Assembly (NCBI RefSeq): GCF_015560805.1
Contig: NZ_JADMSO010000010.1
Location: forward strand, 1 to 64,000
Source: Mediterraneibacter glycyrrhizinilyticus
Lineage (GTDB): Bacteria; Bacillota; Clostridia; Lachnospirales; Lachnospiraceae
Length of the DNA stretch: 64,000 nt
Reading direction: 5' to 3'
A program made the position numbers and the translations under genes. The notes below the pieces were generated by a model that made no database searches, was not told the DNA's origin, and saw nothing but the letters and a program-made list of their open reading frames with translations. Positions 13,023-54,593 of this stretch are shown one piece after another (within the stretch, counting starts at the first letter, position 1; each line of letters opens with the position of its first letter).

Positions 13023-14084
13023 TTACGATTCCCTCCCATCTTTGCGGCTCTCCATCTGTTTTGGGCTGCCTGACGATACGAAGATTATTTCTGCCAAAAC
13101 CGTGAGCCCCGTAAACAGGATCGTATTTTTCAGATCAGAAAAGACCCGTTCGTCTCCCGGGCACAACAAGCAGCGCTGAAGTTCCCTAAATACTTCCCGT
13201 TTTTCGGCAATCAGCCGTGGAAAAAATCCCATATCCGACCACATTGTGGGCAGATAATCGCCGCTGAACCGAAATGTCCACGCAAGCCCTGCTGCCGTCA
13301 TCCCGCAAATTGCCCCTGCGACCAGCATTTTTGCCAAAAATCGGATGCCGGATCCTGAGATCCGGTTCAACTGGCGATATCCGTTTCTTATGTATACAAA
13401 AAACAATAGCCATAACGGAAGCGAAACAATAGCCCTTGCAAGTGCGCTGTACAAATTTCCCTCAAAAAAACCGTTTGCTTCCTTTCCGGTCATCTGCATC
13501 AAAAGACTTTGTGCGGAAGAAGCCGGCTTCGATTTCTCCCCGTATTCCAGAAAAATCCCGTTCAGTCCCTCTTCCTCTTCTGCCCGGACAGCCGCAAATA
13601 TACTTCCGTTTTTCACACATCCTCGAATGTAATACTCCATTCCCGCGATCGTGATCCGGTTTCCCTGTACGTTTTTTGTTCCAAATAATTTTTCCGCAAG
13701 CGCTGTACTCACCATACAGCCCTGCACATCGTCTTCCCATGGATAACTGCCGCCGGCGAGTTGTCCCGCAAAGAAGCTTTCCATACTTCCTGCGATCTTC
13801 CATACATCAGCTGTTACCACTTCCCGGACTTCACTGCTTACAGACTGCATTTCTTCCATGGACCATCCTGTCGTCTGCGGCAATACATCCGCCTGTTCTC
13901 CCGGTTCTTTCTGTTCTGCCTGTTCTGTGAACGCGGATAATGCGCTCCGGGTGAGAACGGGCGTATCATAATATGCATTGAAACATCCCGCTTTTTTTTC
14001 GGTCTCTCCATAAAACAGAAGTGCCAGAAACCAACACCCTGCTCCCAAAAAGACGATGCCTGTTTTGATCCATTTCTTTTTCAT
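13023..14084 (-). CDS. MacB-core-like membrane protein (ABC transporter permease-related)
   Basis: A 353-residue protein with one N-terminal membrane segment (~7-26), an extracytoplasmic domain of ~175 residues containing a MacB periplasmic-core-like stretch (GCMVSTALAEKLFGTKNV..NRITIAGMEYYIRGCVK), then three hydrophobic segments (~212-234, 248-268, 320-340). This is the MacB 1+3 topology, but the FtsX part is poorly conserved and no nucleotide-binding domain is fused or encoded nearby. Its ATG overlaps the adaptor gene stop by four bases. Expected to work with the HlyD-type adaptor; which ATPase energises it is unknown, or it may not transport at all. Confidence 0.65.
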   Translation of the reverse strand: MKKKWIKTGIVFLGAGCWFLALLFYGETEKKAGCFNAYYDTPVLTRSALSAFTEQAEQKEPGEQADVLPQTTGWSMEEMQSVSSEVREVVTADVWKIAGSMESFFAGQLAGGSYPWEDDVQGCMVSTALAEKLFGTKNVQGNRITIAGMEYYIRGCVKNGSIFAAVRAEEEEGLNGIFLEYGEKSKPASSAQSLLMQMTGKEANGFFEGNLYSALARAIVSLPLWLLFFVYIRNGYRQLNRISGSGIRFLAKMLVAGAICGMTAAGLAWTFRFSGDYLPTMWSDMGFFPRLIAEKREVFRELQRCLLCPGDERVFSDLKNTILFTGLTVLAEIIFVSSGSPKQMESRKDGRES

Positions 14085-15637
14085 TCTTCAAGCCTCACCT
14101 TATCTCCCGGCGCAATCTCTTTACTACTCCCGATGATCACCTTGTCATCCGGATCAAGCGCTGCGTTTACCGCCGCGCTGCTCCCATCCTTTTCAAGTAC
14201 CGTCACCGGAACCCGCTTTGCTTTATACTCATTTCCGAGTATCGTTTCCTCCTGTTCTGCCACAAGGCAGAATGTACCGTCCGAATCTTTTCTGACTGCC
14301 GAAAGCGGAAGAATCTGCTGATAAGCCGACTCCGTCTGTCTGCTGATCTCATACGAGACCTCACTGCCGTACATGGCTTCATTTTCTTCCAGCGGTACAT
14401 AGAATACTCCCGCCATATTTTGTCCGCCCGATGCGCTTCCACCTCCCTGTGCACTCTTCTCTCCCGCTGTTCCGAAAGAGGCATCCGCTCCAAACCGCAC
14501 TTCTTCTACATTCTTTTTCAATGCTTTTCCTTTTCCCGGAACCGTCACCGACACTTCGTCCCCCTGTTCGATCTTAGACAGATCTTCCGCCGTCAGAGCG
14601 CCCTTGATCCGGTATCCTCCACAGCCGAGCATCAGAAAGGAAGTATCATCCGTCACATTTCCCGCTGTCATGGAACTCTTTTTTAATACACCGTCCACAG
14701 GCGCTTTGACTTCTCCGTTTTCATTCTGCATCTGTACCAGTTTTTCCAGTTCTTTCCTTGCAAGATCCAGATCCACCTGCGCCGACTGTACACTGTAATT
14801 GCCAGCTTCCGCTGTCTTCTGGTCATTTTCCGCCGCGGCTGCGTCTTGCTCCTGCGCGCTCTGATACGCATTATACGACTGGGTTCTTGCCGACTCCTGA
14901 TTCTGAAGTTCCGTCTCCGCCTGTGTTTTCTGTGCCTCCAATTCCTGCACTGCTCCGTCGTAGACTGCCTGCGCCTGTGTTTTTCTTTCCACTGCCGCTG
15001 CTTCTGCCTGTTGGCGCAGCTTCTCTGCCTCTTCTGGTTTTCCCTCACTTTCCATCTGCTGTGCCTGCTGCATTGCCGCTTCTTTTTCCGTTTCCGCAGC
15101 CTGTATTTCCGCATCCAATATCTGCTGTTGCTGTGCGGTTCCCTCATTCCACGCACGCTCCGCCGAGGAATAGGCCTCCCATGCTTTGGAATAATTTTCC
15201 TCTGCCAGTTGTACGTCTCTTGCTGCACCCTCGGAAGCCTCCACTCTCGCCGGCGGTTCTCCCGTGAGCTGAGCCTGTCCGACTGCCAGCTCCAGTTTCG
15301 TGATCTCTGCCTGTTTCTTCTCTATGCTTTCCTGCAAATATGCCTTATCATACTGCAGGATCACGTCTCCCTGCTTTACAGCCGATCCGGTCGGTTGTAC
15401 CTTTTCCACACGCAGTCCGCGTTGCAGTGCAAGCAGATGTTCCGATCTTGTCTCCACCGTTCCGTTCCCACGGATCAGAATGTTGAGTTTTCCCTCCTGC
15501 ACCCTGCCTGTCGTCACCGTCGGCACGACCATAGATGCCGCCGCACGGGAAACCGCGGTGCAGACCGCCATCACAAGAAAAAATACGGCAAATGCGGTCG
15601 CCGCTGTCTTTTTTTTACTGATCTTCATTTTCTTCAT
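14081..15637 (-). CDS. HlyD/MacA-type membrane fusion adaptor
   Basis: A 518-residue adaptor: N-terminal membrane anchor (~11-32), a biotinyl-lipoyl-like half (VQEGKLNILIRGNGTVET..GSAVKQGDVILQYD), a long Ala/Gln/Glu coiled-coil hairpin (~105-295), the second lipoyl half (NGEVKAPVDGVLKKSSMTAGNVTDD) and C-terminal beta-barrel and membrane-proximal parts (LGNEYKAKRVPVTVLEKDG). The hairpin is unusually long and rich in Gln. AAGGAGTAAGTAC precedes the ATG inside the end of the upstream permease gene. Such adaptors normally serve exporters, which makes its place behind two importer permeases odd. Confidence 0.85.
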   Translation of the reverse strand: MKKMKISKKKTAATAFAVFFLVMAVCTAVSRAAASMVVPTVTTGRVQEGKLNILIRGNGTVETRSEHLLALQRGLRVEKVQPTGSAVKQGDVILQYDKAYLQESIEKKQAEITKLELAVGQAQLTGEPPARVEASEGAARDVQLAEENYSKAWEAYSSAERAWNEGTAQQQQILDAEIQAAETEKEAAMQQAQQMESEGKPEEAEKLRQQAEAAAVERKTQAQAVYDGAVQELEAQKTQAETELQNQESARTQSYNAYQSAQEQDAAAAENDQKTAEAGNYSVQSAQVDLDLARKELEKLVQMQNENGEVKAPVDGVLKKSSMTAGNVTDDTSFLMLGCGGYRIKGALTAEDLSKIEQGDEVSVTVPGKGKALKKNVEEVRFGADASFGTAGEKSAQGGGSASGGQNMAGVFYVPLEENEAMYGSEVSYEISRQTESAYQQILPLSAVRKDSDGTFCLVAEQEETILGNEYKAKRVPVTVLEKDGSSAAVNAALDPDDKVIIGSSKEIAPGDKVRLEE

Positions 15638-15641
15638 GTAC

Positions 15642-16487
15642 TTACTCCTTTAGCCCTGATGCAAGAATCCCCTGCTCCAGATAATCCTGCCCGCAGGCAA
15701 ACAAAAATACCGACGGCGCCATGATCAGGATCGAAGCCGCAAAAGCGGTTGCAACATCATTTGCCGTAATATTGGACAAATACAATGAGACCGGAAGCAG
15801 ACTTTTCGTCTTCAAAAATGTCATCGGCGCCTCGATCGCATTCCAGCATTCCATGAAATTCAGGATTAGCGAAGAGACGACTCCCGGCATTCCGAGAGGC
15901 AGTCCGATCCTGAAAAATACTTCCCATGTGCCCGCACCGTCCACTTTTGCAGCCTCAAGCAGCGAATCCGGTATCTGCTGAAAAAACTTCGTCATCAGAA
16001 ACACCGGAAAAGTGGAAAAAATCCCCGGAAGTATGACCGCCCAGTGTGTATCCAGTATCTTCAGAAAAGACAACACCGTATAACCGGAAACCATCGTGAC
16101 CTGAAACGGCAGTATCATTAAGATCATATACAGATAAAGCACGAGTTTTCGTCCTTTAAACCTGTACCGTCCAAGCGCCCACGCCGCCGGAAGCCCGACA
16201 CAAAGCTGTCCTGCCAGTACCGTAAACGTCTGTCTGCATGAATTCCAGAACATCACGAAAAAATCAGGACTGTCCAGCAAAAGCTGCAGATACGCTTTCA
16301 ATGTCGGATAAAGCGGAAATAATTTCCACTGAAGTTCACCGCCGCTTCCGTAAAGGACACTGCCGTAACTTTCCTTTAATTCTGCCGGTCCCATCAAAGA
16401 ACCTGCCGCCAAAAGCAGGATCGGAAAAATCAGGATCAGGACAAACAACGTTACGCCGATCCGGACTGCCGTTTTCTTTTTCCTCAC
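15642..16487 (-). CDS. Carbohydrate-type ABC transporter permease, MalG family
   Basis: A 281-residue inner-membrane permease with about six membrane segments and the EAA loop ESLLEAAKVDGAGTWEVFFRIGLPLGMPGV that docks to the ATPase. The start is a GTG overlapping the TGA stop of the MalF-type gene, so the two are coupled. Forms the heterodimeric channel with the product of 16484-17386. No ATPase gene is adjacent; Clostridia often share an MsmX-type ATPase among such importers. Confidence 0.9.
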   Translation of the reverse strand: MRKKKTAVRIGVTLFVLILIFPILLLAAGSLMGPAELKESYGSVLYGSGGELQWKLFPLYPTLKAYLQLLLDSPDFFVMFWNSCRQTFTVLAGQLCVGLPAAWALGRYRFKGRKLVLYLYMILMILPFQVTMVSGYTVLSFLKILDTHWAVILPGIFSTFPVFLMTKFFQQIPDSLLEAAKVDGAGTWEVFFRIGLPLGMPGVVSSLILNFMECWNAIEAPMTFLKTKSLLPVSLYLSNITANDVATAFAASILIMAPSVFLFACGQDYLEQGILASGLKE

Positions 16488-17386
16488 ATGTTCGTCCTCC
16501 GTTTCTCCTCGATCTTCTGGCTTCCGATCAGGATCAGCCCCAAAATGAAAGCAAGCATCACCGCAGCCGCCGTCATTTTCTGCATATCCAGCTTCAAAAA
16601 CCAGTTATTGAATAAATGCTGCAGCATATAAATACTGTCATGCGGATAATTTCCCGCGATCATATATGCCTCCCGAAATACTTTAAACGCATTGACCAGA
16701 GATAAGATTCCTGTAAGAAATGCCGTTGGGATCAAAAGCGGGCAAGTAATATGCCAAAAGCATTTTAAGCCGTCTGCTCCGTCCATCCTCGCCGCCTCAT
16801 ACAGACTGTCCGGTATCCCCAGCAGTCCCGAAAGCCAGAGGATCATATCATATCCGAGATTTTTCCAGATATATACCACGACCAATACGCCAAATGCTTT
16901 CGGTGTGTTCATATAATCCGGTCCATGGACTCCAAACTTCTGCAGCGCTTCATTCGGAATCCCTCCCTGATCAAAAAAAAGCTGCCAAAACAGAACGACC
17001 GATCCTGCCGGAACCGCCATCGGAAGTAAAAAACCGGATTTCAATATACCGCTTTTCCTGCCTGTATTCAAAAGCAGGATGCCGAAAAACAGCGAGCTGC
17101 CCAAAAGCAAGGGCAGGCAAACGATCAGAAACCTGACCGTATTGCCCGCTGCCAGCCGAAACGCTTCATTTTCCAGCACTCCCCGATAATTTTCCAGACC
17201 GACAAATTCACTGCCCACCGCATTGAAAAAAGATCTCCGCACCACATCTGCAAACGGAATGAGGATAAAGATCCCCACTCCGGTCAGACTGGGTGCCAGC
17301 AAAACCCACGGAATCCAGCTTTCCTTTTTACTCGGAAAGGTAAAGTTCCATTTTTTCACCCAATGTTTTCGCTGCTTCTTCCGCAC
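16484..17386 (-). CDS. Carbohydrate-type ABC transporter permease, MalF family
   Basis: A 300-residue permease with six membrane segments and the EAA loop DSLYEAARMDGADGLKCFWHITCPLLIP. Start chosen at GTG 17386 because GGAGGAACGATCA lies directly before it; this overlaps the end of the binding-protein gene by 59 bases, in another frame. An alternative GTG at 17416 has no ribosome site. The overlap implies tight coupling with the preceding lipoprotein gene. Confidence 0.85.
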   Translation of the reverse strand: MRKKQRKHWVKKWNFTFPSKKESWIPWVLLAPSLTGVGIFILIPFADVVRRSFFNAVGSEFVGLENYRGVLENEAFRLAAGNTVRFLIVCLPLLLGSSLFFGILLLNTGRKSGILKSGFLLPMAVPAGSVVLFWQLFFDQGGIPNEALQKFGVHGPDYMNTPKAFGVLVVVYIWKNLGYDMILWLSGLLGIPDSLYEAARMDGADGLKCFWHITCPLLIPTAFLTGILSLVNAFKVFREAYMIAGNYPHDSIYMLQHLFNNWFLKLDMQKMTAAAVMLAFILGLILIGSQKIEEKRRTNM

Positions 17387-19634
17387 TGATCGTTCCTCCA
17401 AAATACTGATCCGCACAATCTAAAAATGCCTCTCTCACTGACAGGTCTATGATGAGCGGTGTGTCTGCGCCCTTTGCCAGATCCAAGATCGGTGCGATCT
17501 GATCTCTGCTCGGATAACCATACGAATGCATTTCCCCATCGCTGAATCCAATGGAGAACAAATCTTCCTGCCCGCCTTTTTCCGCAATGTCTGCCTGCTT
17601 ATCCAGACTTTCCGTACGAACCGGAAGCCCCTCCATGAATTCCTGCTGCTGGATCTCATCACTCAGCATCGTTTCTATGAACTCCTGCGCCAGTTCCTTT
17701 TCGTCGGAAGACGCATTGATACCCATGCGGTTCATTGGTATATAGAGACCATGTGGGTTTACCACAGACAATCCCTGTTGTTTCTCCAAAATATCACACA
17801 CAAGTGCGATCCTGGATAATCCATATATTTCATCCACGCCCGCAATATCCGTTTGCTCATATAATTCCAACATGCCGATCCCAGAAAATGCCGATATCGT
17901 ATTGCCGGATGTCATAAGACCTCTGAAGTTCTCTGACCATGTATGTTCCATATCTTCTGACGGATTATTATCGACAAGTTGTTTGGACAATTCCAAAAGT
18001 TCCTGTATCTTTTCCTCTGAAAAGCTTCCGTCTTCTGTCTTCAATGCTTCATAATTGGACGCAAATAAAAGATATGCCATCTGTCCGTAAGCCGCGGCTC
18101 CGATCACCTTTCCATCCGGCTGTGCTTCTAAAAACTGCCGGACAGATTCCAGACTGTCCAGTCTTGCCAGTGCTTCCTCCGTTCCATAGAATACAGGCAT
18201 CCGGAAAGAAGCCGGAATCTCATAATTCTTTCCCTCTTTTTTTACTCCGTTTATTACTCCCTCCAGCAATGTCTTGTCTTTTACTTTTTTCTCTGCAAGA
18301 TCAGTCATGTCTTCCAGTATTCCTTTTTCGATATAAGAATCGACCGGAAGATCATCTAGGAACAGAACATCCGCCCCCTCTTTATTTAACAGGCTTGTAT
18401 TCAGCGCATCAATATAGTCTGCCGGATTTCCGTCTGCCCCTTGCCCGAGCGCATACTGATAATCGACGTCTACTTCCGGATGTTCTTTCTCAAATGCCCG
18501 GACTGCCGCCTCTGCCATCCTACTCTCATAAAGTCCGTATACCGACAATGTTTTCTCTGTTTTTGTACTGAGTTCGGCGTCATAATAATAACGGCAGATA
18601 TGGAATGTATTGGTCTGGTAATTCTCATAAACTCCATAGAGATTCTGATCGCCGTCCGCCATAAAATTCCTCATGACAAGACTGTTCTCGATCTCCCCTA
18701 AACTTCCGCGGCTTCCGTCATAAATCTGCTCGCCGATGCTTCCGTTCTCCTGATAAACAGAAATTCCGTTTTTCGTCGCAATATAATAAGTTCCGTTCTC
18801 ATCTGTTGTCAGAAAACCGATTCCGTTCTCCAGCGCCTCCACTTGTGTTGCCCCGGACTGCTTTCCTGTCAGCGCATCGTAGTTCAACAGATTTTCTTGA
18901 TCCTGTCCCAGTGTCACGATCGTATTTTCCCGAACCGCGATCATACCGTCATTGTTCGTCAGGATCTGGTGGCTCGGCAACGTATATTTTTCTTTTCCTG
19001 TCGCCCCGTCATACAATACAATATTGGTCGTTGCCGCCCCGACAACCGCAACATCTCCGTTTTCCACAACGCCCAGATAATACGGAAGAAAGCCGCCGTT
19101 TTGCTTCTGATATTCCAGATCCATACATTCCAGCATGACCTCCTGTGTTTCCCCCTCCGGCGTATGCCGATACAGATACGTCGGCTGCGGCGGAAGTACA
19201 AACTCTCCGTCCGTCGAAGTAATCTGGTCGGATTCCCCGGTATCTACAATGTCCGTCGTCATCAGATACAGGTTATCATCGGCTCCCCGCAAAAGATAAT
19301 TCACATAAGTATCTACATCGATCCGCTCTTCGACCCAAACTTCTTCTGTTTTTTCCCAGTCATCTTCCGCCTGCTGTGTATATGAATATACCTGCGGCTC
19401 TTCTCCTCCGGTCTGGGTATATACTTCCAGCTTCTTTTCCTCGTTTAAAAAGCTGCCGAGATAAATTTCCTCTTCTCCCCACGGTCCTTCGATTTCTTTC
19501 TCCACATAACCACCTTTTGCTTCTTTTTTACTTCCGTCTTCCTCCTTTTTATCTTCACTCCCGGAACATCCGCCAAGTAATCCGACGGTAATCGCCCCGC
19601 AAAGTACAAGTGCAAGTATTTTCTTTAATTTCAT
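17328..19634 (-). CDS. Lipoprotein: N-terminal propeller-like domain fused to extracellular solute-binding domain
   Basis: A 768-residue lipoprotein: signal peptide with lipobox LLGGC (Cys23), a ~340-residue N-terminal region of propeller-like repeats (VNYLLRGADDNLYLMTTD, NGDVAVVGAATTNIVLYDG, ENTIVTLGQDQENLLNYDA, ENGIGFLTTDENGTYYIAT), then from ~375 a family-1-type solute-binding domain (AAVRAFEKEHPEVDVDYQYA, LNKEGADVLFLDDLP..YIEKGILEDMTDL). This is nearly twice the usual binding-protein length. Start 19634 has AGGAG 8 bases upstream; the track-longest start at 19679 has none. First gene of an operon with two permeases, an HlyD adaptor and a MacB-core protein, divergent from a two-component system. 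The ligand is unknown. Confidence 0.85.
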   Translation of the reverse strand: MKLKKILALVLCGAITVGLLGGCSGSEDKKEEDGSKKEAKGGYVEKEIEGPWGEEEIYLGSFLNEEKKLEVYTQTGGEEPQVYSYTQQAEDDWEKTEEVWVEERIDVDTYVNYLLRGADDNLYLMTTDIVDTGESDQITSTDGEFVLPPQPTYLYRHTPEGETQEVMLECMDLEYQKQNGGFLPYYLGVVENGDVAVVGAATTNIVLYDGATGKEKYTLPSHQILTNNDGMIAVRENTIVTLGQDQENLLNYDALTGKQSGATQVEALENGIGFLTTDENGTYYIATKNGISVYQENGSIGEQIYDGSRGSLGEIENSLVMRNFMADGDQNLYGVYENYQTNTFHICRYYYDAELSTKTEKTLSVYGLYESRMAEAAVRAFEKEHPEVDVDYQYALGQGADGNPADYIDALNTSLLNKEGADVLFLDDLPVDSYIEKGILEDMTDLAEKKVKDKTLLEGVINGVKKEGKNYEIPASFRMPVFYGTEEALARLDSLESVRQFLEAQPDGKVIGAAAYGQMAYLLFASNYEALKTEDGSFSEEKIQELLELSKQLVDNNPSEDMEHTWSENFRGLMTSGNTISAFSGIGMLELYEQTDIAGVDEIYGLSRIALVCDILEKQQGLSVVNPHGLYIPMNRMGINASSDEKELAQEFIETMLSDEIQQQEFMEGLPVRTESLDKQADIAEKGGQEDLFSIGFSDGEMHSYGYPSRDQIAPILDLAKGADTPLIIDLSVREAFLDCADQYFGGTISAEEAAKTLGEKMELYLSE

Positions 19635-19670
19635 ACGTCCATCTCCTCTCTGACCCGCCTGTTTGCTGCT

Positions 19671-19720
19671 TAACATCAATGTACAGGAAATATTCCCCCT
19701 TGTACACCGACGCTAACGTT
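19671..19720. repeat. Palindromic intergenic repeat, copy B
   Basis: Ends TAAC (19671) and GTTA (19720). The minus strand reads AGCGTCGGTGTACAAGGGGG within it; the other arm has the matching TGTACA and CC. The element lies in the leader of the binding-protein operon. Confidence 0.65.
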
Positions 19721-19739
19721 ATCATTTATCATAAACAAA

Positions 19740-19792
19740 GATTCTCTAAAAATCTTTAAAGAATCCGAAATGTTTTTGGAGAATTTTTAGAG
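19740..19792. promoter_or_regulatory. Inverted-repeat operator region between the divergent regulator and transporter genes
   Basis: CTCTAAAAAT (19744-19753) is repeated inverted as ATTTTTAGAG (19783-19792), and GATTCT/AGAATC (19740-19745, 19760-19765) is nested with TCTTTAAAGA. About 60 bases before the response-regulator start and 105 before the lipoprotein start, a natural place for autoregulation and transporter control by the response regulator (inference). Confidence 0.55.
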
Positions 19793-19854
19793 ATTTGTAT
19801 GATACAATAATCTGAAACAAGTTTTTCATAACATTTCAGGAAAGGATTTTTCTT

Positions 19855-20562
19855 ATGAGAATTTTATTGATCGAAGATGATATCTCACTCTGCAACGCAC
19901 TGATGATTCATCTGCGCAGCGAGGGATATGAAACGGACGTCTGTCACAATGGTACGGACGGTCTTTCCTATGCCTTGCAAAACACTTATGATGTGATCAT
20001 TTTAGACCGTATGCTTCCGGAACTGGACGGTCTGACCCTTTTGTCCGCTATCCGCCGGAAAAATATTTTTACGCCGGTGATCATTGCCACTGCAATGGAC
20101 TCGCTTCAGGAAAAGATCAACGGATTGGACTGCGGTGCGGATGATTATATCACCAAACCGTTCGATGCCCAGGAACTTCTCGCAAGGATCCGGGCTCTAT
20201 CCAGACGTCCCGCAGTTCTGAATGACAGTCCGCTGCTTTCCTATGGAGACTTGTCTTTCAATCCGGAAAAACAGGAACTCACCGTATCGAACAAGACACT
20301 GTCCCTGTCCAAAAAAGAAGCCGGTCTCATGGAATATCTGCTGAAAAATAAAGAACAGAATCTGCGCAGAAATCTGATGCTTTCTTATGTCTGGGGAGCG
20401 GATGCAGAAGTCGAAGAAGGCAACCTCGACAATTATATTTATTTTTTACGCCGCAGACTGCGCACTTTGAAAAGTAACGTCCAAATAAAAACGATCCATG
20501 GCGTCGGCTACCGCCTGGAAGAAAAATCCGCTGAAGCAAATGCCTGCGGGGAGGATTTGTGA
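19855..20562 (+). CDS. OmpR-family response regulator
   Basis: A 235-residue regulator: receiver domain (1-~118) with acidic pocket EDD, phosphoacceptor Asp in DVIILDRMLPELDG and Lys in DYITKPF; winged-helix C-terminal domain (~130-225) with LSLSKKEAGLMEYLL and NLDNYIYFLRRRL, GVGYRLE. AGGAAAGGATTTTTCTT precedes the ATG. Paired with the kinase that overlaps its stop, and divergent from the propeller/binding-protein operon it probably controls. Confidence 0.93.
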   Translation: MRILLIEDDISLCNALMIHLRSEGYETDVCHNGTDGLSYALQNTYDVIILDRMLPELDGLTLLSAIRRKNIFTPVIIATAMDSLQEKINGLDCGADDYITKPFDAQELLARIRALSRRPAVLNDSPLLSYGDLSFNPEKQELTVSNKTLSLSKKEAGLMEYLLKNKEQNLRRNLMLSYVWGADAEVEEGNLDNYIYFLRRRLRTLKSNVQIKTIHGVGYRLEEKSAEANACGEDL

Positions 20563-21860
20563 TGTTTAAAAAACTTCAAAAAAAGCTGACTTTTTTATAC
20601 ACGCTGACCACCGGTACGATTCTGACCGTGATTCTCATTATCTGCTTTTTCTATATGAAAACTGCCGTAGAAGCACGATACAAAGCCGAATTTTCCGATA
20701 TTTTTCTCACAATATCCAATCGGTTTCAAACAGAGTCTTTTTTTACCGATTCTTGGCTGGCGCAAATGGAATCAGACAACCATCTCCTGATCCATATCGA
20801 AGAAAACGGAAAACCTTTATTTTTTCAGGGCGCATTTTCCCCTGATACGAAACGGGACGTCCTGCTGGAAAATGCCCGCAAAAAAGCCGCGGATATGGGG
20901 ATCACTTTGCAGACAGCTACTTTTTCTTCTCCCCTGCAGACCTCCTCTTTCACCGTAAAAGGAAATGCCAACGATTCCTATTTGTGTATGTATCTCGTGG
21001 AAGCAGGCATTTCCGGCGGTAAATCCCTGCTTGTCATGCAGGATGTCAGTTCCTTTTCCAGACAACTGTTGTGGCAGGTATGCTTCTTTCTTTTCACCGG
21101 AATCGCAGGGATTATTTTACTTTATCTGGCGAGCTGGCATACAGTGGGAAAAACGCTGATTCCTCTAAAAGAAAATCAAAAAAAACAGGCAGAATTTATC
21201 GCCGCCGCATCCCATGAACTCCGCTCCCCTCTTGCGGTCATTCAGGCAAGCGCTTCCGCTGTGCGCGCTTCCCCGGAAAATGCAGACCAAATGCTTTCCA
21301 ATATCGAAAAAGAGTGTACGCGCATGGGCAATCTGATCAAAGATCTCCTCGTGCTGGCGGCATCCGATTCAAGAAAATGGCAGCTTACATTGGAAACTTA
21401 CGACAGCGACACCCTGCTTTTGGATGTATACGAGACATTTGAACCTGTCTGCCGTCATAAAAACATCCGGCTGAATCTGCTTCTTCCGGATACCGAACTT
21501 CCCCATGTCCGCTGTGATAAAAACCGCGTCATTCAGATCCTCACAATTCTTCTGGATAACGCCATTGCCTACACCGCCCCCGATGAAACGATCGATCTGC
21601 AAATTTCATCAAAAAAGAAAAAAATCTGTTATCTGGTCGCCGATCACGGGAAAGGGATTCCCGACGAGGAAAAAGACAGGATTTTTGACCGCTTCTATCA
21701 AAGCGATAAATCCAGAAAAGAAAAAGAACATTTCGGGCTTGGACTTTCCATTGCCAGAGAACTTGCCGAACTGCAAAAAGGTTCTCTGACCTTAACAGAT
21801 ACCCCGGGCGGCGGATGCACATTTTTACTTCTTCTGCCGATTGCCGAAGATCATCTGTGA
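20562..21860 (+). CDS. Membrane sensor histidine kinase
   Basis: A 432-residue kinase: membrane segments ~8-29 and ~170-192 flanking a ~140-residue extracytoplasmic sensor; no clear HAMP; H-box ASHELRSPLAVI, N-box DNAIAYTAP, G-boxes DHGKGIPDEEKDRIFDRFY and FGLGLSIAREL. ATG 20562 overlaps the regulator stop (TGATG) with GGGGAGGAT upstream. The sensor domain has no recognised fold; being medium-sized it probably detects an external ligand or envelope stress rather than intramembrane cues. Confidence 0.92.
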   Translation: MFKKLQKKLTFLYTLTTGTILTVILIICFFYMKTAVEARYKAEFSDIFLTISNRFQTESFFTDSWLAQMESDNHLLIHIEENGKPLFFQGAFSPDTKRDVLLENARKKAADMGITLQTATFSSPLQTSSFTVKGNANDSYLCMYLVEAGISGGKSLLVMQDVSSFSRQLLWQVCFFLFTGIAGIILLYLASWHTVGKTLIPLKENQKKQAEFIAAASHELRSPLAVIQASASAVRASPENADQMLSNIEKECTRMGNLIKDLLVLAASDSRKWQLTLETYDSDTLLLDVYETFEPVCRHKNIRLNLLLPDTELPHVRCDKNRVIQILTILLDNAIAYTAPDETIDLQISSKKKKICYLVADHGKGIPDEEKDRIFDRFYQSDKSRKEKEHFGLGLSIARELAELQKGSLTLTDTPGGGCTFLLLLPIAEDHL

Positions 21861-22370: not shown

Positions 22371-22508
22371 TTTAAGCAATGAGAGCAGTCACTGTTATGT
22401 AGCACGGAATTGTGGCGTTCCCGGTACAAGCTGCTATACTCTTTTTCATCTTATTTTTATAGTTGCTTCATGTGCTTACGAATACAGTGACTGCTCTCAT
22501 TGCTTAAA
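22371..22508. repeat. 138-bp element with perfect 25-bp terminal inverted repeats
   Basis: The first 20 bases of the left arm are TTTAAGCAATGAGAGCAGTC (arm 22371-22395); its exact 25-bp complement occupies 22484-22508. Beyond the arms TTCCCAC is again present in inverted form on both sides. The 88-base interior has no ORF but holds a smaller TAGCA/TGCTA dyad. It lies between two convergent genes. MITE-like or a very long bidirectional hairpin. Confidence 0.75.
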
Positions 22509-28652: not shown

Positions 28653-29132
28653 TTACATCCCTCCTCTTTCTTTTTCCACTGTACTTTCACTTCCTATGCT
28701 GTCTTTCACCTCTTCCAGCAACCGCTTTCTGCGTATTTTTCTCTCCGGTTCTACAATCGAGGCACTCTGTCTGATCTGTAATTTCATCCTTTTTCGCTCT
28801 GCATATACATTCACACGGACTCGCTTTTCACTTTCTTCAATAGAAACTTCTGTGTGAGGAAATAAAATCAATTTTCCTTGTATGCGTTCCCGATAAAATT
28901 CTGTAAGATCCGCTTTTCCATCTGTCTCCGGCTTTCTGGTCATCTGAACTGCCACGACCGCAGTCTCTCCCGCCGCACCTATTAAAATATTTTTATCATG
29001 ATAATAAAATACGGTGTATATGATCATTACAAAAATAAAAAATATCATAGGCACAATGTATGTCATCTCCACGGTGATCACTCCGCTCACCGTTCTCTTT
29101 GCTTTACTTTTCTTATCTTTCATATGATTCAT
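28653..29132 (-). CDS. TadE-like minor pseudopilin
   Basis: A 159-residue protein with a TadE-type N-terminus: basic leader, then SGVITVEMTYIVPMIFFIFVMIIYTVFYYHD (shown in part as its key Glu in TVEMTY), a single hydrophobic helix and an extracytoplasmic basic domain. Overlaps the prepilin peptidase gene stop by ATGA, with GGAGGTGTGGG before it. Probably processed by that peptidase and built into or helping assemble the Flp pilus. Confidence 0.82.
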   Translation of the reverse strand: MNHMKDKKSKAKRTVSGVITVEMTYIVPMIFFIFVMIIYTVFYYHDKNILIGAAGETAVVAVQMTRKPETDGKADLTEFYRERIQGKLILFPHTEVSIEESEKRVRVNVYAERKRMKLQIRQSASIVEPERKIRRKRLLEEVKDSIGSESTVEKERGGM

Positions 29133-29563
29133 CCCACACCTCCAAGTACTCTTACAAAAAAATATCCAATCCCCAAGAATGGTACAAATGGAACTGTCGT
29201 TTTTCTATGAAATTTTCCAAATACCAATGCCGCAGCAGAAACCACTGCTGACAGAAAAAATGCGATTGCCAGCAAACTGATCAGATTCCAAAATCCAACG
29301 GCCACACCTAACAGCAAGATCAATAAACTGTCTCCGTATCCAAAACTTTCCCGCGTCATTTTACTTATCATTAAAAAAATACAGCCTGCTGCCGCCCCGA
29401 ATAAACAAAGTTCCCATGGAGTCTCTCTTCTGATAAGCTGAGAAAGTATGACACAGATCCCACCAGCCGCCAATAACCACATCGGCAGTTTTCTGGTTCG
29501 TATATCCAACACAGAAAGTATGACAAGATATATAAAAAACGTGATCTGGATTATTTTCCACAT
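29129..29563 (-). CDS. A24 family prepilin peptidase (TadV/CpaA-like)
   Basis: A 144-residue polytopic membrane aspartyl protease with the two catalytic Asp contexts: LSVLDIRTRKLP in the first loop and ESFGYGDSLL (the GxGD motif). Short form without the N-methyltransferase domain, as usual for TadV. Overlaps the preceding TadE-like gene by 13 bases. Cleaves the Flp and TadE-like prepilins. Confidence 0.9.
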   Translation of the reverse strand: MWKIIQITFFIYLVILSVLDIRTRKLPMWLLAAGGICVILSQLIRRETPWELCLFGAAAGCIFLMISKMTRESFGYGDSLLILLLGVAVGFWNLISLLAIAFFLSAVVSAAALVFGKFHRKTTVPFVPFLGIGYFFVRVLGGVG

Positions 29564-30360
29564 TTATTGCATGCCCCCATTCCCGCAACCTCTGATTTTT
29601 TCACTGCCCGGATTGAACGCTTCAAGCCACTGCAGTTGAGTGAATTATGATATTTAGTTCCATAATTTGTAATATAAACCCCCGCCATCGATTCTCCGTG
29701 AACACATTTGTCACACGCATGATAAATTCCTCCCGATTCATTCCTGAGATCTTCTACTGACGCTGCCGGAACAAACTGAACGGATAGCTGAAGATAAGAG
29801 CACCGATAATCGGTATGATACACAATCCCTGTCTCCGTAATATAAACAATACGTTCCTCCCCTTCCGCTTCATTCTGATCGGCATATCCCGTCCATGCTT
29901 TTACTTGAAACTCATGTTCCTGTTTTAACCGGATCCCTGTATATTCAGGAAACGGAAGCTGCAGTTTATACGAAACTTTAATGTGCAGCACTTCGTCGTT
30001 CGAATCATAATATGTCGCCCAACAGCGGATACCGCTGCTTCCTCCTGATATAATGCTCCGGTCCAACCGTTCCGCTTCCGCTAGATTCACCAGATCTGCC
30101 TGAAATTTGACCGGATTAAAAAATGGGTGAATGGCAGCATCTTCCGCTGCGATTTTTGCCGCTCCATGCGCTGCCGTTCCGATTGAAAACCGAATAGCCT
30201 GTATTTCCAAGAGATAAACCAGACACATAATCGCGAATAAAAATAATGGAATTGTCAATGCCGACTCTACGGTTACACTGCCTTTGATCCTTGTCTTTGA
30301 ATCTGATGCAGACGCCCTTTCCCGATCGGATATGGATGGGTTTCTATTTATTTGTGTCAT
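29551..30360 (-). CDS. TadE-like pseudopilin with two C-terminal His/Cys metal-site repeats
   Basis: A 269-residue protein with a TadE-type start (IKGSVTVESALTIPLFLFA, hydrophobic helix ~32-52), a middle beta-rich domain, and from ~172 a duplicated unit: VYITETGIVYHTDYRC..HACDKC (172-221) and VYITNYGTKYHNSLNC..GACNKC (228-269). Each unit has H-x4-C followed by C-x2-C, a zinc-ribbon-like HC3 set. Such units at the tip of a pilus protein could bind metal or form disulfides. Preceded by a 195-base gap holding repeat copy C. Confidence 0.8.
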   Translation of the reverse strand: MTQINRNPSISDRERASASDSKTRIKGSVTVESALTIPLFLFAIMCLVYLLEIQAIRFSIGTAAHGAAKIAAEDAAIHPFFNPVKFQADLVNLAEAERLDRSIISGGSSGIRCWATYYDSNDEVLHIKVSYKLQLPFPEYTGIRLKQEHEFQVKAWTGYADQNEAEGEERIVYITETGIVYHTDYRCSYLQLSVQFVPAASVEDLRNESGGIYHACDKCVHGESMAGVYITNYGTKYHNSLNCSGLKRSIRAVKKSEVAGMGACNKCGK

Positions 30361-30482
30361 CGCAGTCTTCCTTTCTTTTTATTTTTGTAGTAACTTTGGC
30401 GTTTCTATCTGTGGGGAACAGACAGTCTCGGGATGAAAAGGCGCCTGCATCAGATTCAAAGATTTGTTACAGCAGCAATGTG

Positions 30483-30545
30483 CAAAGAACAATGTGCCCT
30501 TTACACACTGCCGCCAGCGTCGATGTACAACGGGAAATACGCTTG
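30483..30545. repeat. Palindromic intergenic repeat, copy C
   Basis: AGCGTCGATGTACAACGGGA (30517-30536) and, back to back on the other strand, GGCGGCAGTGTGTAAAGGGC (about 30514-30495). It lies within the Tad operon between the DUF5702 and TadE-like genes. Confidence 0.55.
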
Positions 30546-30555
30546 TTCATCAACG

Positions 30556-31926
30556 CTAAGAATATCCGAAATATGCCGGAAATGAATATGTGATCCCTGT
30601 TCGTATTTCGGCAGTACTTTTTACCTTTAATTTTGTAACGCATTGGTCTGCATGAAAATGAGAATGTCCCTTTTCAAATCTGATATTTTGCTCAATTCGG
30701 TCCAAAGTCCGCATTGTCAGTTCTTCTTCTCCTTTCATAAAAAGCAAGATCTGTAAATACTGCATATAAGTCATTCCATCCTCTGCATCCATCCCCTCCA
30801 TCCCGTCTTCCCCCGAACCGATCCGGAATACAGACTCCAATGACAGCTGCCATGTCTCTTCCGACTTCATCAAAGCTGCTCGCTTTCCCGAGAGAAGTGC
30901 CCGCAGATCCATCACACTTTCCCCAAAGCACCATAAGAGCAACAAAATCTGTTTTAACCCCTCTGCCGCCTCCGGATGCAATGCAACTGCTGCCAAGGCA
31001 AGCGCCAAGGCTCCCGCTTCGCCTTGCTTCTTTGCATCAGACAACAAATACACATAATTCATCGCTAACCGGAAACAGAAAAGCTGCCGGACTACGGACC
31101 TTAAATTTTCTTCATCGCTACTTTTACCACTGATCATATATTCGATCTCGTAATCCAGATTTCGATTTTTTCCGTGCGGTTCTGTTGCAGATCCGAACGT
31201 TTCCAGAATATATTGTTCATACAATACTTTTCCCTTGACTCCCCCGGTATTGGAGCGCTGGGGAAAACTCCCCCAGCCCGACTCCTTATTTCCGGCAGAC
31301 AACATTTCTGCCGGATTTATCGATTTTGATGATAAAATGAATGTTTTCGGCAGTACCAATGACAACAGACCAGACTTTTTCGCCTCTGTGATTCCATCAA
31401 ACTCTTCCGGAAGTATCTCCTCATTCTGCCCGATCAACTGATCGATCTCCTCCGATACCGCTTCACCTTTGATCTCTTGTTCTTCCCATTTTTCCGATAA
31501 TCCGACAAGATTCTGAATCAGGTCAATTCCGTCCTTACTTTCCATATACGCGAGCACTTGCTCACGAAATGCCTGTCCACCATTATCTGTCAGAAGCTGA
31601 AGATCTGTGATTTCCTGTTCTATTCCCGGATTTCCGTAATATGCCATCCGATTTAATAACAGATCTTCCTCGAATTGCCCGCTTCCGTATGACATATCAA
31701 ATGCAAAAATATCATAGTCCTCCAATAAATCTTTCTGATATTCCCCGAAAACAGAATAGAGCGCCCGATCTACATCCATTCGTTTTTGATTCTTTGAAGT
31801 TTGGATCATGGAACTTTCTGTCAATGCCAGGATAAAAGATACCAGCAGTACAAAAACCAGACTTAAAAATGCCGTAATCTCACCTCGTACTGTCCTTTTC
31901 TTTTCTCTTTCCCGATTACTCTTCAT
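30556..31926 (-). CDS. DUF5702 protein of the Tad locus
   Basis: A 456-residue protein with an N-terminal TadG/TadE-like leader and helix (RGEITAFLSLVFVLLVSFILAL), then a large extracytoplasmic domain (YSVFGEYQKDLLEDYDIFAFDMSYG is the recognisable DUF5702 start) with an acidic central part and a second Ala/Leu-rich helical stretch ~300-345. DUF5702 proteins occur in Lachnospiraceae Tad loci, apparently in place of TadG. Nine bases after the pilin gene stop. Function unknown beyond pilus association. Confidence 0.82.
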   Translation of the reverse strand: MKSNREREKKRTVRGEITAFLSLVFVLLVSFILALTESSMIQTSKNQKRMDVDRALYSVFGEYQKDLLEDYDIFAFDMSYGSGQFEEDLLLNRMAYYGNPGIEQEITDLQLLTDNGGQAFREQVLAYMESKDGIDLIQNLVGLSEKWEEQEIKGEAVSEEIDQLIGQNEEILPEEFDGITEAKKSGLLSLVLPKTFILSSKSINPAEMLSAGNKESGWGSFPQRSNTGGVKGKVLYEQYILETFGSATEPHGKNRNLDYEIEYMISGKSSDEENLRSVVRQLFCFRLAMNYVYLLSDAKKQGEAGALALALAAVALHPEAAEGLKQILLLLWCFGESVMDLRALLSGKRAALMKSEETWQLSLESVFRIGSGEDGMEGMDAEDGMTYMQYLQILLFMKGEEELTMRTLDRIEQNIRFEKGHSHFHADQCVTKLKVKSTAEIRTGITYSFPAYFGYS

Positions 31927-31934
31927 TCTCTTTC

Positions 31935-32144
31935 CTAAATGCCTGCACTTTCGCTTGTGATCTTATCAAAAATCGTATTGACTAAATCGATCAGTTGATT
32001 TTTGAATATCAAAATCAGGGCGATGATCACCACCAAAATAAGCAGCATTTCTATCACTGATAACCCCGAGTTGTCCTTTAAAATCGCAATCCCTTCCCGG
32101 AATTTTCTTTGGATCATCCGTCTCATTTTCTGTATTTTTTTCAT
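31935..32144 (-). CDS. Flp1-family type IVb pilin
   Basis: A 69-residue major pilin: basic leader ending LKDNSG, then a processed hydrophobic helix starting LSVIEMLLILVVIIALILIF with the conserved Glu five residues after the predicted cut, and a short tail. Start 32144 is chosen for the GGAGGGAAGCTT ribosome site; the longer form to 32177 lacks one. Only one pilin gene is present. Confidence 0.88.
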   Translation of the reverse strand: MKKIQKMRRMIQRKFREGIAILKDNSGLSVIEMLLILVVIIALILIFKNQLIDLVNTIFDKITSESAGI

Positions 32145-32186
32145 AAGCTTCCCTCCATCTTCCGCCTTTACCGGCACAACAGCCTT

Positions 32187-33422
32187 TTAAATCTGTACGG
32201 AAAAGAATGCCGGAACAACGATGATAACAAGCACAACTCCCAGCATCAGGAACATAGGAGCCAGCATTTTTGTTCCTGCTTCTTCTCCAAGTTTTTTTGC
32301 AAAGTCTTTCCGTTCTTCAAATGCCTGAAATGCTTCCTGCTTCAGCAGTTCAGAAATTCCTCTGGAACCTTTTTTCAGATTCTGTGAAAGCAATGTTCCG
32401 AATTTCCGATACTTCGTGAGTCCACATCGTTCTCCAAACCGTTCATAACATTCGCTTTCCGACGCTCCACTGCTGATTTCATGCATTGTATATGCCATTT
32501 CCTCATAAATTTCCCTGCGCCCGTTTCTTTTTTCCTCTTCTTCATAAGACTGGACAATTTTACTCCATGCATTTCTCACCGGTAAACCAGCCCCCAAATA
32601 AAGCGTAAATCTGCTGATCAACTGTGGATAGTCGAATTCCATCTGCTTTTTCCGCGCCTTGTCTTCTTCTTTTTTCCTTTGTCCTTCCGCCGCATAACAC
32701 AACATCGCAAGTATGGTTCCAAGCAGAAGGATCCCCACAGCCCGAAAATCCGTCACATATTTCCATATGACCTGCTGTCCGTCCACACTGGTCGGAAGAG
32801 ACATCTTGTCCTTTGTTGCCTGTTCTTTATCCAGTCTTTCCGTTTCTGCTTTCAGATCCTGTAACCATCTCTCCGCCTTTGTAAGTTTCGTGGGATATAT
32901 ATGCACATAAAATGTATGATAAAATGTTTCTTCCCCATAACTTAACACAGCATCCAACTTCAACAATATTCCCGATGCATCCACCACCTCCTGACGCAGT
33001 TTTCCCTGTTGATCCATCACCTCATAATTATCCAATTCCCACGCGATCGTTATCCCTGTTTCCGGTATCTCCGTAATCAGATCCAGATCGCTTCTTACCT
33101 CATCCAGACTTTTGTTTTCTCCCAGAATAAGTGTTTCCAGTTTCCTTGCAGCTTCTTCAAATACATTCTCCAACTCTTCTTTGGTATATTTTTCCTCGCT
33201 GACTTTCACAGTCACGGATTCTTTCACATCCCCGATCTGCACTTCCAGATCTTCTTCCCGGCTTCCCATCCCGGGCGCATTTCTCTGCAAAACGCTCTGC
33301 CCATGTTCATCCTGCAAAAGTTTCTTTCCGTTATCCGACATAAATACAAGAAATGCGATTCCTACCGTGCCAAGAAAAATCAAGATTATTTTTCTGCAAA
33401 GTTCTTTTCCCGGTTTCTTCAT
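32187..33422 (-). CDS. TadC-like type II secretion F protein with extracytoplasmic insert
   Basis: A 411-residue membrane protein. The C-terminal ~190 residues are a T2SSF domain (FTLYLGAGLPVRNAWSKIVQSYEEE, MHEISSGASESECYERFGERCGL, LKKGSRGISELLKQEAFQAFEERKDFAKKLGEEAGTKM, parts shown by key words). In front are a membrane segment (~13-31), ~190 extracytoplasmic residues (SEEKYTKEELENVFEEAARKLE, FYVHIYPTKLTKAERWL) and another segment (~223-241). Usual TadC proteins lack this outer domain. Starts five bases after tadB with GAGGTATAGAAGA. Confidence 0.83.
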   Translation of the reverse strand: MKKPGKELCRKIILIFLGTVGIAFLVFMSDNGKKLLQDEHGQSVLQRNAPGMGSREEDLEVQIGDVKESVTVKVSEEKYTKEELENVFEEAARKLETLILGENKSLDEVRSDLDLITEIPETGITIAWELDNYEVMDQQGKLRQEVVDASGILLKLDAVLSYGEETFYHTFYVHIYPTKLTKAERWLQDLKAETERLDKEQATKDKMSLPTSVDGQQVIWKYVTDFRAVGILLLGTILAMLCYAAEGQRKKEEDKARKKQMEFDYPQLISRFTLYLGAGLPVRNAWSKIVQSYEEEEKRNGRREIYEEMAYTMHEISSGASESECYERFGERCGLTKYRKFGTLLSQNLKKGSRGISELLKQEAFQAFEERKDFAKKLGEEAGTKMLAPMFLMLGVVLVIIVVPAFFSVQI

Positions 33423-33426
33423 TCTT

Positions 33427-34125
33427 CTATACCTCAATTTTTATGATCCGATTTCCAAGCCGGTAGGCAAACAGATATACGACCATACATCCCGTCATCA
33501 ATAATACTCCCGGAATGTTTCCATACAATACATTTAGAAACTCCGGGAATGCCATGCGCATATAACCGATCATCCCAAGAGGAATCACACACATCACATG
33601 AAATTCCAATCGTTTTGCTGCCAGAACCGTCTGTATTTCGCGTTCTGTCTCTATCTTTCCGCCTATGATCCGAACCGTTTCTTTCAATATAGAGATACTG
33701 TCCCCTCCTGTTCTTTTCGCCGCCGCAAATACCGTCACAAAGTTATTCACATCCTCCTGATTTACTCTTTTTGAAAATGAAGTCAAAACTTGTTCCGCCG
33801 TAAGATTCATATCAAGTTCTCTGACCATTCTTTCAAATTCTGTCCGTATCCGACTGCCCTCCCGGTACAATGGACGCAAATCTTTTTCCGTCTCGCGTAT
33901 CGCATTTTCAACAGAATATCCTGCCTTTAAAAGAGACGATAAAATCTGGATCCCATTTTGAAATTGTTCACGAAAAAGTTGTTCTTTTCTTTTACAACAC
34001 TCCTCTCTCCACTCATGCCAGTACCAGATTCCGACCGGAAGAAGCGCCGTGACCGCTAACCATGTATTATAAAAAAGCCATGCCGCAGTCCCCACCAGTA
34101 ACACAGACTGCACTGCTGCCGCCAC
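33427..34125 (-). CDS. tadB: TadB-like type II secretion F protein
   Basis: A 232-residue inner-membrane platform protein with N-terminal hydrophobic segments (VLLVGTAAWLFYNTWLAVTALLPVGIWYW region), a T2SSF domain (FQNGIQILSSLLKAGYSVENAIRETEKDL, TGGDSISILKETVRIIGGKIETEREIQTVLAAKR in part) and C-terminal membrane segments. Start is GTG 34125 with GGAGGGAGTAT before it, overlapping the ATPase gene by 59 bases in another frame. Confidence 0.88.
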   Translation of the reverse strand: MAAAVQSVLLVGTAAWLFYNTWLAVTALLPVGIWYWHEWREECCKRKEQLFREQFQNGIQILSSLLKAGYSVENAIRETEKDLRPLYREGSRIRTEFERMVRELDMNLTAEQVLTSFSKRVNQEDVNNFVTVFAAAKRTGGDSISILKETVRIIGGKIETEREIQTVLAAKRLEFHVMCVIPLGMIGYMRMAFPEFLNVLYGNIPGVLLMTGCMVVYLFAYRLGNRIIKIEV

Positions 34126-35341
34126 ATACTCCCTCCGGCTGATATCCTGCTGCCAGCAACTTGTCCCAAAAAGCCAGTTCTTCCACCTTCACCAATGTTC
34201 CCTTAATTTTTCCATTCTCCATTCCCTCCTCCCGAAATTCATACAAAGTCCGCAGCCTGATCTGACCATCCTCAACTCCCATGACCTCTGCTATCTCCAA
34301 AACTCTCCGGCTCTTATCCCGAAGTCTTCCAAGATGAACGATAATATCCAGTGCCGAAGCAATCTGCCGCTGAATTGCAGCAAGCGGCAATTCAATCCCC
34401 ATCATCATCATTGTTTCCAGACGGTGCAGCATATCTGCCGGATTATTGGCATGCCCGGTCGACATAGATCCGCTATGTCCGTTCAGCATCGCGGAAGAAA
34501 TCATATCTACAGTCTCTTCTCCCCGAACTTCTCCTACAATGATCCGGTCCGGACGCATTCTCAGCGCAGACCGGATCAAATCCCGGATCGTAACCGCGCC
34601 TTCTCCTTCCAGATTTGCATTTCTCGCTTCCAACCGTACCAGATTCGGAACTCCATGTATCTGTAGTTCCGCATTATCTTCGATCGTTATGATCCGTTCT
34701 TCTTTCGGAATAAAATCAGACAACACATTTAAAAACGTTGTCTTTCCAGCTCCGGTTCCTCCACTCACAAAAATGTTATATTTGGCACGCACCAGAATTT
34801 TCAAAAAGTCAGCCGCCTCTTTCGGGAGACTTCCCCATAAGATCAGTTGTTCCATCGTAACAGCCTCTTTCGGAAACTTCCTGATCGTCACGATCGGTCC
34901 GTTCAATGCGACCGGTTTCAGCACAACATTTACCCGTGATCCATCTTCCAGACGCGCATCTGCGATCGGAGAACTCTCATTTACATAGCGGTTCGTACCG
35001 GCAACGATCTGCTGTATCACATCCTCCAATCTGTTTTGTGATAAAAAACGCCGGTCAGAACGCACGATCCGACCATCCCGTTCCAGAAAAATCTCATCCG
35101 TACCATTGATCATAATCTCCGTGATCGTGTCATCCTCAATCAGTTCCTGCAAAATATCCAGCTTTCGAAATGAATGAAACAACTGACGGCTCAGCAAAAT
35201 CTGTCTGCGCAACGGTATATATTCTTCCTCGGCCGCTTCCTGAAGCACTTCTCTGATCAGATCGGTAAGTTCCTCGTCCGATATATCCCGTGTCAGATCG
35301 ATCCGCTCTAATACGCGTTCATATAATTGCTCTTCCCTCAC
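34067..35341 (-). CDS. cpaF: CpaF/TadA-type pilus assembly ATPase
   Basis: A 424-residue secretion ATPase powering Flp pilus assembly. N-terminal helical domain, then the ATPase core with Walker A FVSGGTGAGKTTFLNVL, Asp box IITIEDNAELQI, Walker B DRIIVGEVRGEETVDMI and the His box STGHANNPADMLHRLETM. Ends with GGDCGMAFL. Its ATG overlaps the tadZ-like gene stop by four bases. Confidence 0.94.
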   Translation of the reverse strand: MREEQLYERVLERIDLTRDISDEELTDLIREVLQEAAEEEYIPLRRQILLSRQLFHSFRKLDILQELIEDDTITEIMINGTDEIFLERDGRIVRSDRRFLSQNRLEDVIQQIVAGTNRYVNESSPIADARLEDGSRVNVVLKPVALNGPIVTIRKFPKEAVTMEQLILWGSLPKEAADFLKILVRAKYNIFVSGGTGAGKTTFLNVLSDFIPKEERIITIEDNAELQIHGVPNLVRLEARNANLEGEGAVTIRDLIRSALRMRPDRIIVGEVRGEETVDMISSAMLNGHSGSMSTGHANNPADMLHRLETMMMMGIELPLAAIQRQIASALDIIVHLGRLRDKSRRVLEIAEVMGVEDGQIRLRTLYEFREEGMENGKIKGTLVKVEELAFWDKLLAAGYQPEGVCGGSSAVCVTGGDCGMAFL

Positions 35342-51467: not shown

Positions 51468-51474
51468 ATCTCTC

Positions 51475-52302: not shown

Positions 52303-52315
52303 GGTATTTTCCTCC

Positions 52316-53194: not shown

Positions 53195-53208
53195 GATCTT
53201 CTCTCCTT

Positions 53209-54516: not shown

Positions 54517-54555
54517 TCTTCCTCTCCTTACAATTTTCCTTACGATCGGAGCAAA

Positions 54556-54590: not shown

Positions 54591-54593
54591 CTT

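Follow-up and report, generated by a model that had tools for sequence, protein, structure and literature searches.

Three kinds of described bacterial system come closest to the locus considered here, a group of seven genes within the first 64,000 nucleotides (the window) of contig NZ_JADMSO010000010.1 of Mediterraneibacter glycyrrhizinilyticus (assembly GCF_015560805.1). In ATP-binding cassette (ABC) importers of the CUT1 type, EAA-loop permeases of the MalF and MalG kinds and a sugar-type binding lipoprotein work with a multitask ATPase encoded elsewhere, and such ATPases (MsmX of Bacillus subtilis, MsmK of Streptococcus pneumoniae) are described as serving several importers (PMC7658222). 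In Gram-positive pumps of the MacAB type (YknXYZ, Spr0693-0695), which belong with the type VII ABC proteins, an HlyD-like adaptor is followed by a protein with four transmembrane (TM) helices and the MacB ectodomain; what such adaptors do in bacteria that have no outer membrane is an open question (PMC4446572, PMC5985334). In the CuaD-CuaS-CuaR system with CuaABC, a binding protein is encoded next to a two-component system governing a sugar importer that has no ATPase gene (PMC10384115).

The locus resembles each of these and departs from each. Unlike the CUT1 importers, it adds near-obligate genes for an HlyD-type adaptor and a MacB-like protein (hereafter Mac) and bears a propeller on its binding protein, and its MalF has FREAYxxAGxYP...QHxxNNWF in place of the usual GGP...GyAsA region. 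Unlike the MacAB-type pumps, it includes MalF and MalG, and it lacks a nucleotide-binding domain, a MacB-type ATPase within or immediately behind the core, and any recognisable coupling region of the FtsX type. Set against the Cua system, it has one propeller-bearing binding protein, an OmpR-type regulator, a divergent layout, and HlyD and Mac. The initial annotation of this DNA could place the combination in no described transporter class; no description of it was found in open-licence literature, which is weak evidence of absence, and we know of no described class with this gene set. Each part comes from a known family, and the combination would merit the name of a new class if the complex were confirmed.

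The importer genes, HlyD and Mac are near-obligately linked, and this is not a chance neighbourhood. No relatives were found in a first scan with the binding protein as sole query; the protein is present in 45 of 200 genomes of the same family. The 40 stretches around binding-protein matches hold MalF, MalG, HlyD and Mac together in 23 cases, the rest having no family MalF or being incomplete or truncated where the contig stops. A profile of 27 MalF proteins retrieved at least 576 relatives from the GTDB contig collection, among Blautia, Dorea, Hungatella, Faecalicatena, Sedimentibacter, Negativibacillus, Oscillospiraceae and others, the nearest Candidatus Blautia species sharing 70-75 % of MalF residues. 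Among the best 80 of these relatives, kept with flanks of up to 10 kb, all four genes were found in 71; short or truncated stretches (3.8-10.5 kb) account for the remaining nine.

Scored against the family profile, MalF proteins fall into three groups: group I, the window's own (branch I; 387-473 bits), group II (branch II; 249-324 bits) and group III, which is ordinary MalF (80-198 bits). In the MalF tree group III is split from I and II with local support of 0.993 and group I from the rest with 1.0, and the place of the GGP and G.As motifs of ordinary MalF is taken in groups I and II by a common C-terminal stretch (FRE.YL..G.YP...iYmLQH..NN.F). Linkage was counted in 129 loci (97 of group I, 32 of group II) and in 21 group III loci, after removal of loci with less than 5.5 kb downstream of MalF and of duplicates, which were recognised by the 200 C-terminal residues of the MalF frame. 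Of the 21, 17 were fetched and the others are additional MalF genes at L049, L205, L211 and in the window. Selection of groups II and III was by MalF score alone, the negative control set being drawn at MalF scores below 200 bits; group I loci were partly recruited via the binding protein and also served to build the profiles of HlyD and Mac. HlyD and Mac are both present in 123 of the 129 (91/97 in group I, 32/32 in group II) and HlyD in 128 (96/97 and 32/32), whereas neither was found in any of the 21 ordinary loci. These counts rule out a chance adjacency of two transporters. The initial annotation had expected such a case to appear as unlinked halves, each with its own ATPase, and had proposed a search for co-occurrence across genomes; that search returned the opposite picture.

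Fifteen loci fetched as supposed ordinary controls (L170-L184; MalF 290-325 bits) carry HlyD in 14 cases and Mac in 13, the two that fall short of the full set lying on short contigs. Ordinary MalF genes with HlyD and Mac nearby occur at L038 (the same place as L122) and at L232, where each adjoins a family operon, and were removed by the downstream-length or duplicate filter. Of 391 genomes sampled evenly across the class Clostridia, 43 contain a MalF match at E <= 1e-70 (lowest score 248 bits), six of them, the window's genome included, in the group I range; of 299 genomes sampled from the phylum, 5 contain one of at least 290 bits, the next scoring 196.5, and within the genus 6 of 12 genomes contain one.

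A single type of ATPase accompanies these loci. As the initial annotation had noted, the window locus encodes none: no ABC ATPase gene was found in or beside it, the nearest PF00005 matches on the contig lying beyond 74 kb. The core of the 129 group I and II loci likewise holds none. A first ATPase gene follows within 2.5 kb downstream in 13 of them, in 13/13 cases of the UgpC/MsmX type, and no other type was found in that interval in any of the 129. The best NCBIfam match of four of these downstream ATPases is UgpC (NF008653) throughout, twice above and twice below the curated cut-off. The loss of a MacB ATPase in the window's genome only can be ruled out, none being present inside or directly after the core in the 129 loci. 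The sole full-length UgpC/MsmX-type relative in the window's genome (contig 24, 169926-171017; 49 % identity) is an orphan with the nearest PF00528 match more than 19 kb away; the solved structures that match it best are 7x0q ('ABC transporter related protein') and MsmX of B. subtilis (6yir), and it presumably energises the window locus. The lack of a local ATPase is ordinary for this importer class: by our reading this genome has 11 adjacent PF00528 pairs with no PF00005 match within 5 kb, the present one included, an arrangement like that known for the multitask ATPases MsmX and MsmK (PMC7658222). The permeases keep the loop on which such an ATPase would act: among the 118 branch I and 39 branch II loci used for counts of motifs, kinases and binding-protein lengths, many of them on short contigs, the EAA loop is found in 117/118 MalF and 113/115 MalG proteins of branch I. 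A second ATPase-less sugar importer lies in the window at 49947-56026 (two PF00528 permeases, a likely binding protein and an FGGY kinase), with an ordinary MalF of 140 bits and without HlyD or Mac. At L097, from [Clostridium] asparagiforme, no ATPase is called after MalG; the similar loci L108 and L110 have one.

Mac retains the MacB ectodomain and four helices and has no nucleotide-binding domain. The window's protein matches MacB_PCD at E 0.0057, under the cut-off; 43 of 53 aligned group I members match it at E <= 0.1, and all eight group II proteins tested do so above the cut-off. The family profile matches the YknZ ectodomain (1.8e-7) and MacB. The AlphaFold model (predicted local distance difference test, pLDDT, 92.5; predicted template modelling score, pTM, 0.88) begins with a helix at 2-29, which is followed by an ectodomain of alpha/beta type and by three more membrane helices (near 209-239, 245-270 and 309-338), and a Foldseek search with it finds MacB (5gko, 8.8e-11) as well as YknZ and LolE.

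In MacB the major coupling helix lies between TM2 and TM3 and relays movements of the nucleotide-binding domains to the membrane helices (PMC5985334). In the model of Mac, TM2 and TM3 are joined by the non-helical residues 240-244 only, and hydropathy puts 16 residues in this gap, where five canonical permeases have 29-43. The four MacB_PCD-bearing proteins of the genome, picked by that domain alone, all match the FtsX C-terminal family PF02687, three of them above the cut-off, whereas it was found in 0/11 Mac proteins scanned singly (3 group I, 8 group II). For the 53 group I members, it does not appear among the 25 families listed of 30, the last of these having one member each, and so occurs in at most 1/53. 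A stricter coupling motif (EIG..KA.GA-like) is found in 0/102 branch I and 0/35 branch II Mac proteins; its presence in 4/5 canonical permeases is a biased control, four having been picked by a piece of the motif, and is superseded by the FtsX comparison. With no recognisable FtsX-type coupling region, a short TM2-TM3 link and no coupling motif, Mac appears to be without an ATPase of its own.

The initial annotation's account of a hybrid seven-gene locus with overlapping start and stop codons holds at the coordinates it gave (Table 1). Five minus-strand genes oppose a plus-strand response regulator/kinase pair. Overlaps of 4 nucleotides join MalF/MalG (16484-16487), HlyD/Mac (14081-14084) and regulator/kinase (20559-20562), and MalG and HlyD are 4 nucleotides apart. 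The first in-frame start of MalF, to which its coordinates refer, lies within the 3' end of the binding-protein gene; the true start may be further 3'. Both permeases match BPD_transp_1 above the gathering cut-off; the window's MalF has the EAA loop EAARMDGA and the family signature FREAYxxAGxYPxxSIYMLQHLFNNWF. In the adaptor the HlyD_3 (PF13437) match is just over its cut-off and that to TIGR01730 under it; one N-terminal TM helix is followed by a long predicted coiled-coil hairpin. The two TM helices of the kinase enclose an extracytoplasmic segment whose length, judged by eye from the translation, is about 135 residues.

Table 1. Features of the locus (positions are those of the window; RND, resistance-nodulation-division)
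Feature	Coordinates	Strand	Basis
Propeller/binding-protein lipoprotein, 768 residues	17328..19634	-	Pfam SBP_bac_8/SBP_bac_1; lipobox-like LLGGC (read from sequence); AlphaFold; Foldseek
MalF-type permease	16484..17416	-	PF00528 2.4e-13; alignment of 27 members; three MalF groups
MalG-type permease	15642..16487	-	PF00528 4e-19; EAA loop EAAKVDGA
HlyD/RND-type adaptor	14081..15637	-	PF13437 1.1e-4; TIGR01730 9.3e-8
Mac, MacB-like 4-TM protein, 353 residues	13023..14084	-	Profile, AlphaFold, Foldseek
OmpR/PhoB-type response regulator	19855..20562	+	PF00072 2.3e-27, PF00486 1.5e-16
Sensor histidine kinase	20559..21860	+	PF00512 1.7e-14, PF02518 7.9e-25
Predicted response-regulator operator, direct repeat TCTCTAA-N4-TCTCCAA (11 bp)	19776..19793	-	
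Second, opposed operator-like repeat TCTCTAA-N3-TCTTTAA	19743..19759	+	Read from sequence; inverted-repeat pairs

The N-terminal propeller of about 340 residues that had been proposed for the binding protein is borne out by its AlphaFold model (pLDDT 89.8), in which a beta-only half with strands at 42-352 precedes a binding-protein half at 361-768; the SBP_bac_8 match (3.3e-16) covers residues 376-678. The profile of the binding protein matches WD40/PQQ propellers and the sugar-binding protein CbpC of Clostridium thermocellum (7x0o), and with the model as Foldseek query 7x0o is found at E 3.4e-15, the top matches being mainly sugar-binding proteins. Frames of at least 600 residues make up 101/110 binding-protein matches in group I and 18/26 in group II. 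Two or three binding-protein genes per locus occur at L060, L089 and L133, and at L053 and L062 the propeller/binding protein is followed on the same strand by an ABC protein of 629-640 residues.

The reading that we favour, with a probability of roughly 0.58, is that of one assembly, in which a CUT1-like importer powered by MsmX/UgpC has HlyD and an ATPase-less MacB-like subunit as obligate extracytoplasmic parts. The near-obligate linkage, the MalF tree, the single ATPase type, the EAA loops of branch I and the MacB fold of an apparently motor-less Mac speak for it, and so does covariation: across 64 complete group I loci the distances of all seven proteins go together (Mantel r 0.74-0.90), and with the response regulator held constant the partial r is 0.29-0.55 for the eight pairs computed. 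Linkage, ATPase type, folds and operator conservation are computed results; the physical complex, the direction of transport, the geometry, the ligand and the kinase input are inferred. In such an assembly, MalF-MalG and the propeller-bearing lipoprotein would be driven by a shared MsmX/UgpC-type ATPase encoded elsewhere, with ATP consumed only at the MalFG coupling loops. An HlyD oligomer, seated on the Mac ectodomain and the outer face of MalFG, might form a sleeve or docking platform in the zone of the cell wall; the propeller may hold a large or wall-bound ligand, or a partner, and the binding lipoprotein would pass substrate inward to MalFG. In the window's branch the two-component system would sense the substrate or the loaded binding protein and switch the operon on via the direct-repeat operators. 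A stronger form of this proposal, which is tentative and which we put well short of even odds, makes the locus a separate class of ABC transporter: MalFG and an MsmX-type motor would be mechanically joined to a trans-wall HlyD/MacB-like superstructure, an exporter architecture run inward or worked from below by the importer ATPase, with the propeller lipoprotein feeding in large wall or glycan ligands.

Several observations weigh against a single obligate assembly. Mac was not detected in 6 of the 129 loci, one of which also has no HlyD, and 10 of the 40 binding-protein stretches are without a family MalF, six of them (L046, L054, L058, L063, L067 and L068) holding the binding protein and kinase pair only, with neither family permeases nor HlyD nor Mac. 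An ABC ATPase of another type lies within 3.5 kb upstream on the same strand in 6/129 loci; at L176, the one such locus inspected, it is half of a separate ATPase/10-TM pair. The WSDF motif of Mac is found in 90/102 branch I and 1/35 branch II proteins, and the EAA pattern in only 30/39 MalF and 33/37 MalG proteins of branch II, with a pattern so crude that it detects only 6/24 ordinary MalG. The distance correlations among the seven proteins are in part a product of common descent. No recurring catabolic enzyme was seen beside the locus in the neighbourhoods read, which had no systematic domain annotation; in a nutrient importer this is odd.

To our knowledge, HlyD-type adaptors in bacteria without an outer membrane are known only with exporters. 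Here they accompany, almost without exception, one importer clade, found in about a tenth of the class sample (43/391), together with a motor-less MacB-like protein. Should these proteins assemble into a single complex, the architectures of import and export would not be separate worlds, and the role of the adaptor in a thick-walled cell would become directly testable by its deletion from an importer.

The regulatory genes bear on the main rival. Regulator and kinase (each at 200 bits or more) lie within 8.5 kb in 81/118 group I loci, a lower bound given the short contigs, against 1/39 in group II; a more distant regulator and kinase are seen in 5/38 group II stretches (L199, L200, L225-L227). 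The divergent gap (19635-19854) holds two opposed operator-like sites, and the strong dyads that had been remarked there are real, with perfect 11-nucleotide arms at 19743-19753 and 19783-19793. The pattern TCT[CTA]nAA-N4-TCT[CTA]nAA occurs in 44 of 66 divergent gaps (one strand 32, opposite strand 16, both strands 4; base shuffles predict about 0.1 gaps), a count that is not an independent test since the pattern was drawn from 22 gaps, most of them among the 66. The window's copy is the sole perfect match to a narrower pattern in the genome, and it would suit an activator acting locally, close to the -35 region of the divergent promoters. A wider regulon was rejected: with at most one mismatch tolerated, the genome contains 12 matches to the operator pattern and 23 to a backward control pattern, and because the control yields more sites than the operator, only the perfect site in the gap is trusted. 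At L085 and L147 the kinase gene converges with an ATPase-HlyD-MacB exporter set, as it also seems to do at L104 and L133.

These data touch on the suggestion in the initial annotation that the locus is a sensing or signalling complex rather than a transporter. In such a transceptor the loaded binding protein would engage HlyD, Mac and MalFG and thereby gate the histidine kinase, in the manner of three-component systems of binding protein and kinase, transport being secondary or lost. The proximity of the kinase pair in the window's branch, the six stretches with binding protein and kinase pair only, and the local operator with its single perfect match all speak for it, and there is a precedent in the pairing of a binding protein with a two-component system (CuaD-CuaSR) in Ruminiclostridium cellulolyticum (PMC10384115). 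The conservation of the core speaks the other way. Close relatives of the kinase pair are missing from 38/39 branch II loci, where MalF-MalG-HlyD-Mac persists, and the UgpC-type ATPases that follow the core in 13 operons, together with the conserved EAA loops, indicate a working importer. Sensing is an unlikely reading of the locus as a whole, though the main rival.

It is improbable, and less likely than sensing, that two machines share one regulator here, MalFG importing on its own and a distinct pump of the MacA/MacB kind being powered, in its MacB half, by an ATPase borrowed in trans. An adaptor followed by a MacB-like permease is the layout of YknXYZ (PMC5985334). Other ABC ATPases from which such a pump might borrow abound in the genome. 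Spr0693-0695 reportedly has the same layout. Against this stand the ATPase survey of the 129 loci, with nothing in the core and the UgpC type alone within 2.5 kb downstream, the FtsX-type C-terminal region, seen in none of the 11 Mac proteins scanned singly and in at most 1/53 group I members, and the modelled TM2-TM3 link, which consists of residues 240-244 only.

Least probable of the four, and a long shot, is an export or surface-assembly role, in which MalFG with HlyD and Mac would hand an envelope component outward and the binding protein would act as an extracytoplasmic chaperone: HlyD and MacB relatives are export parts (PMC5985334, PMC4446572) and no catabolic gene was seen recurring in the neighbourhoods read, but the binding-protein fold resembles sugar-binding proteins. 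Binding-protein-dependent MalFG relatives with UgpC ATPases are, as a rule, importers, which likewise counts against export. A role in phage defence was considered and rejected, PADLOC returning nothing for Mac, HlyD or the binding protein and two PDC-M43B matches over the catalytic region of the kinase only.

Elsewhere in the window, a cluster at 29129-35341 encodes a prepilin peptidase (Peptidase_A24) and a T2SSE ATPase; we take it to be Tad/Flp-pilus-like. At 40332-42518 lies a gene for a protein with GH18 and SH3 domains. Between the kinase gene and the next minus-strand gene there is a perfect 25-nucleotide inverted repeat (22371-22395 and 22484-22508, with 88 nucleotides between the arms), possibly a small mobile or structured element.

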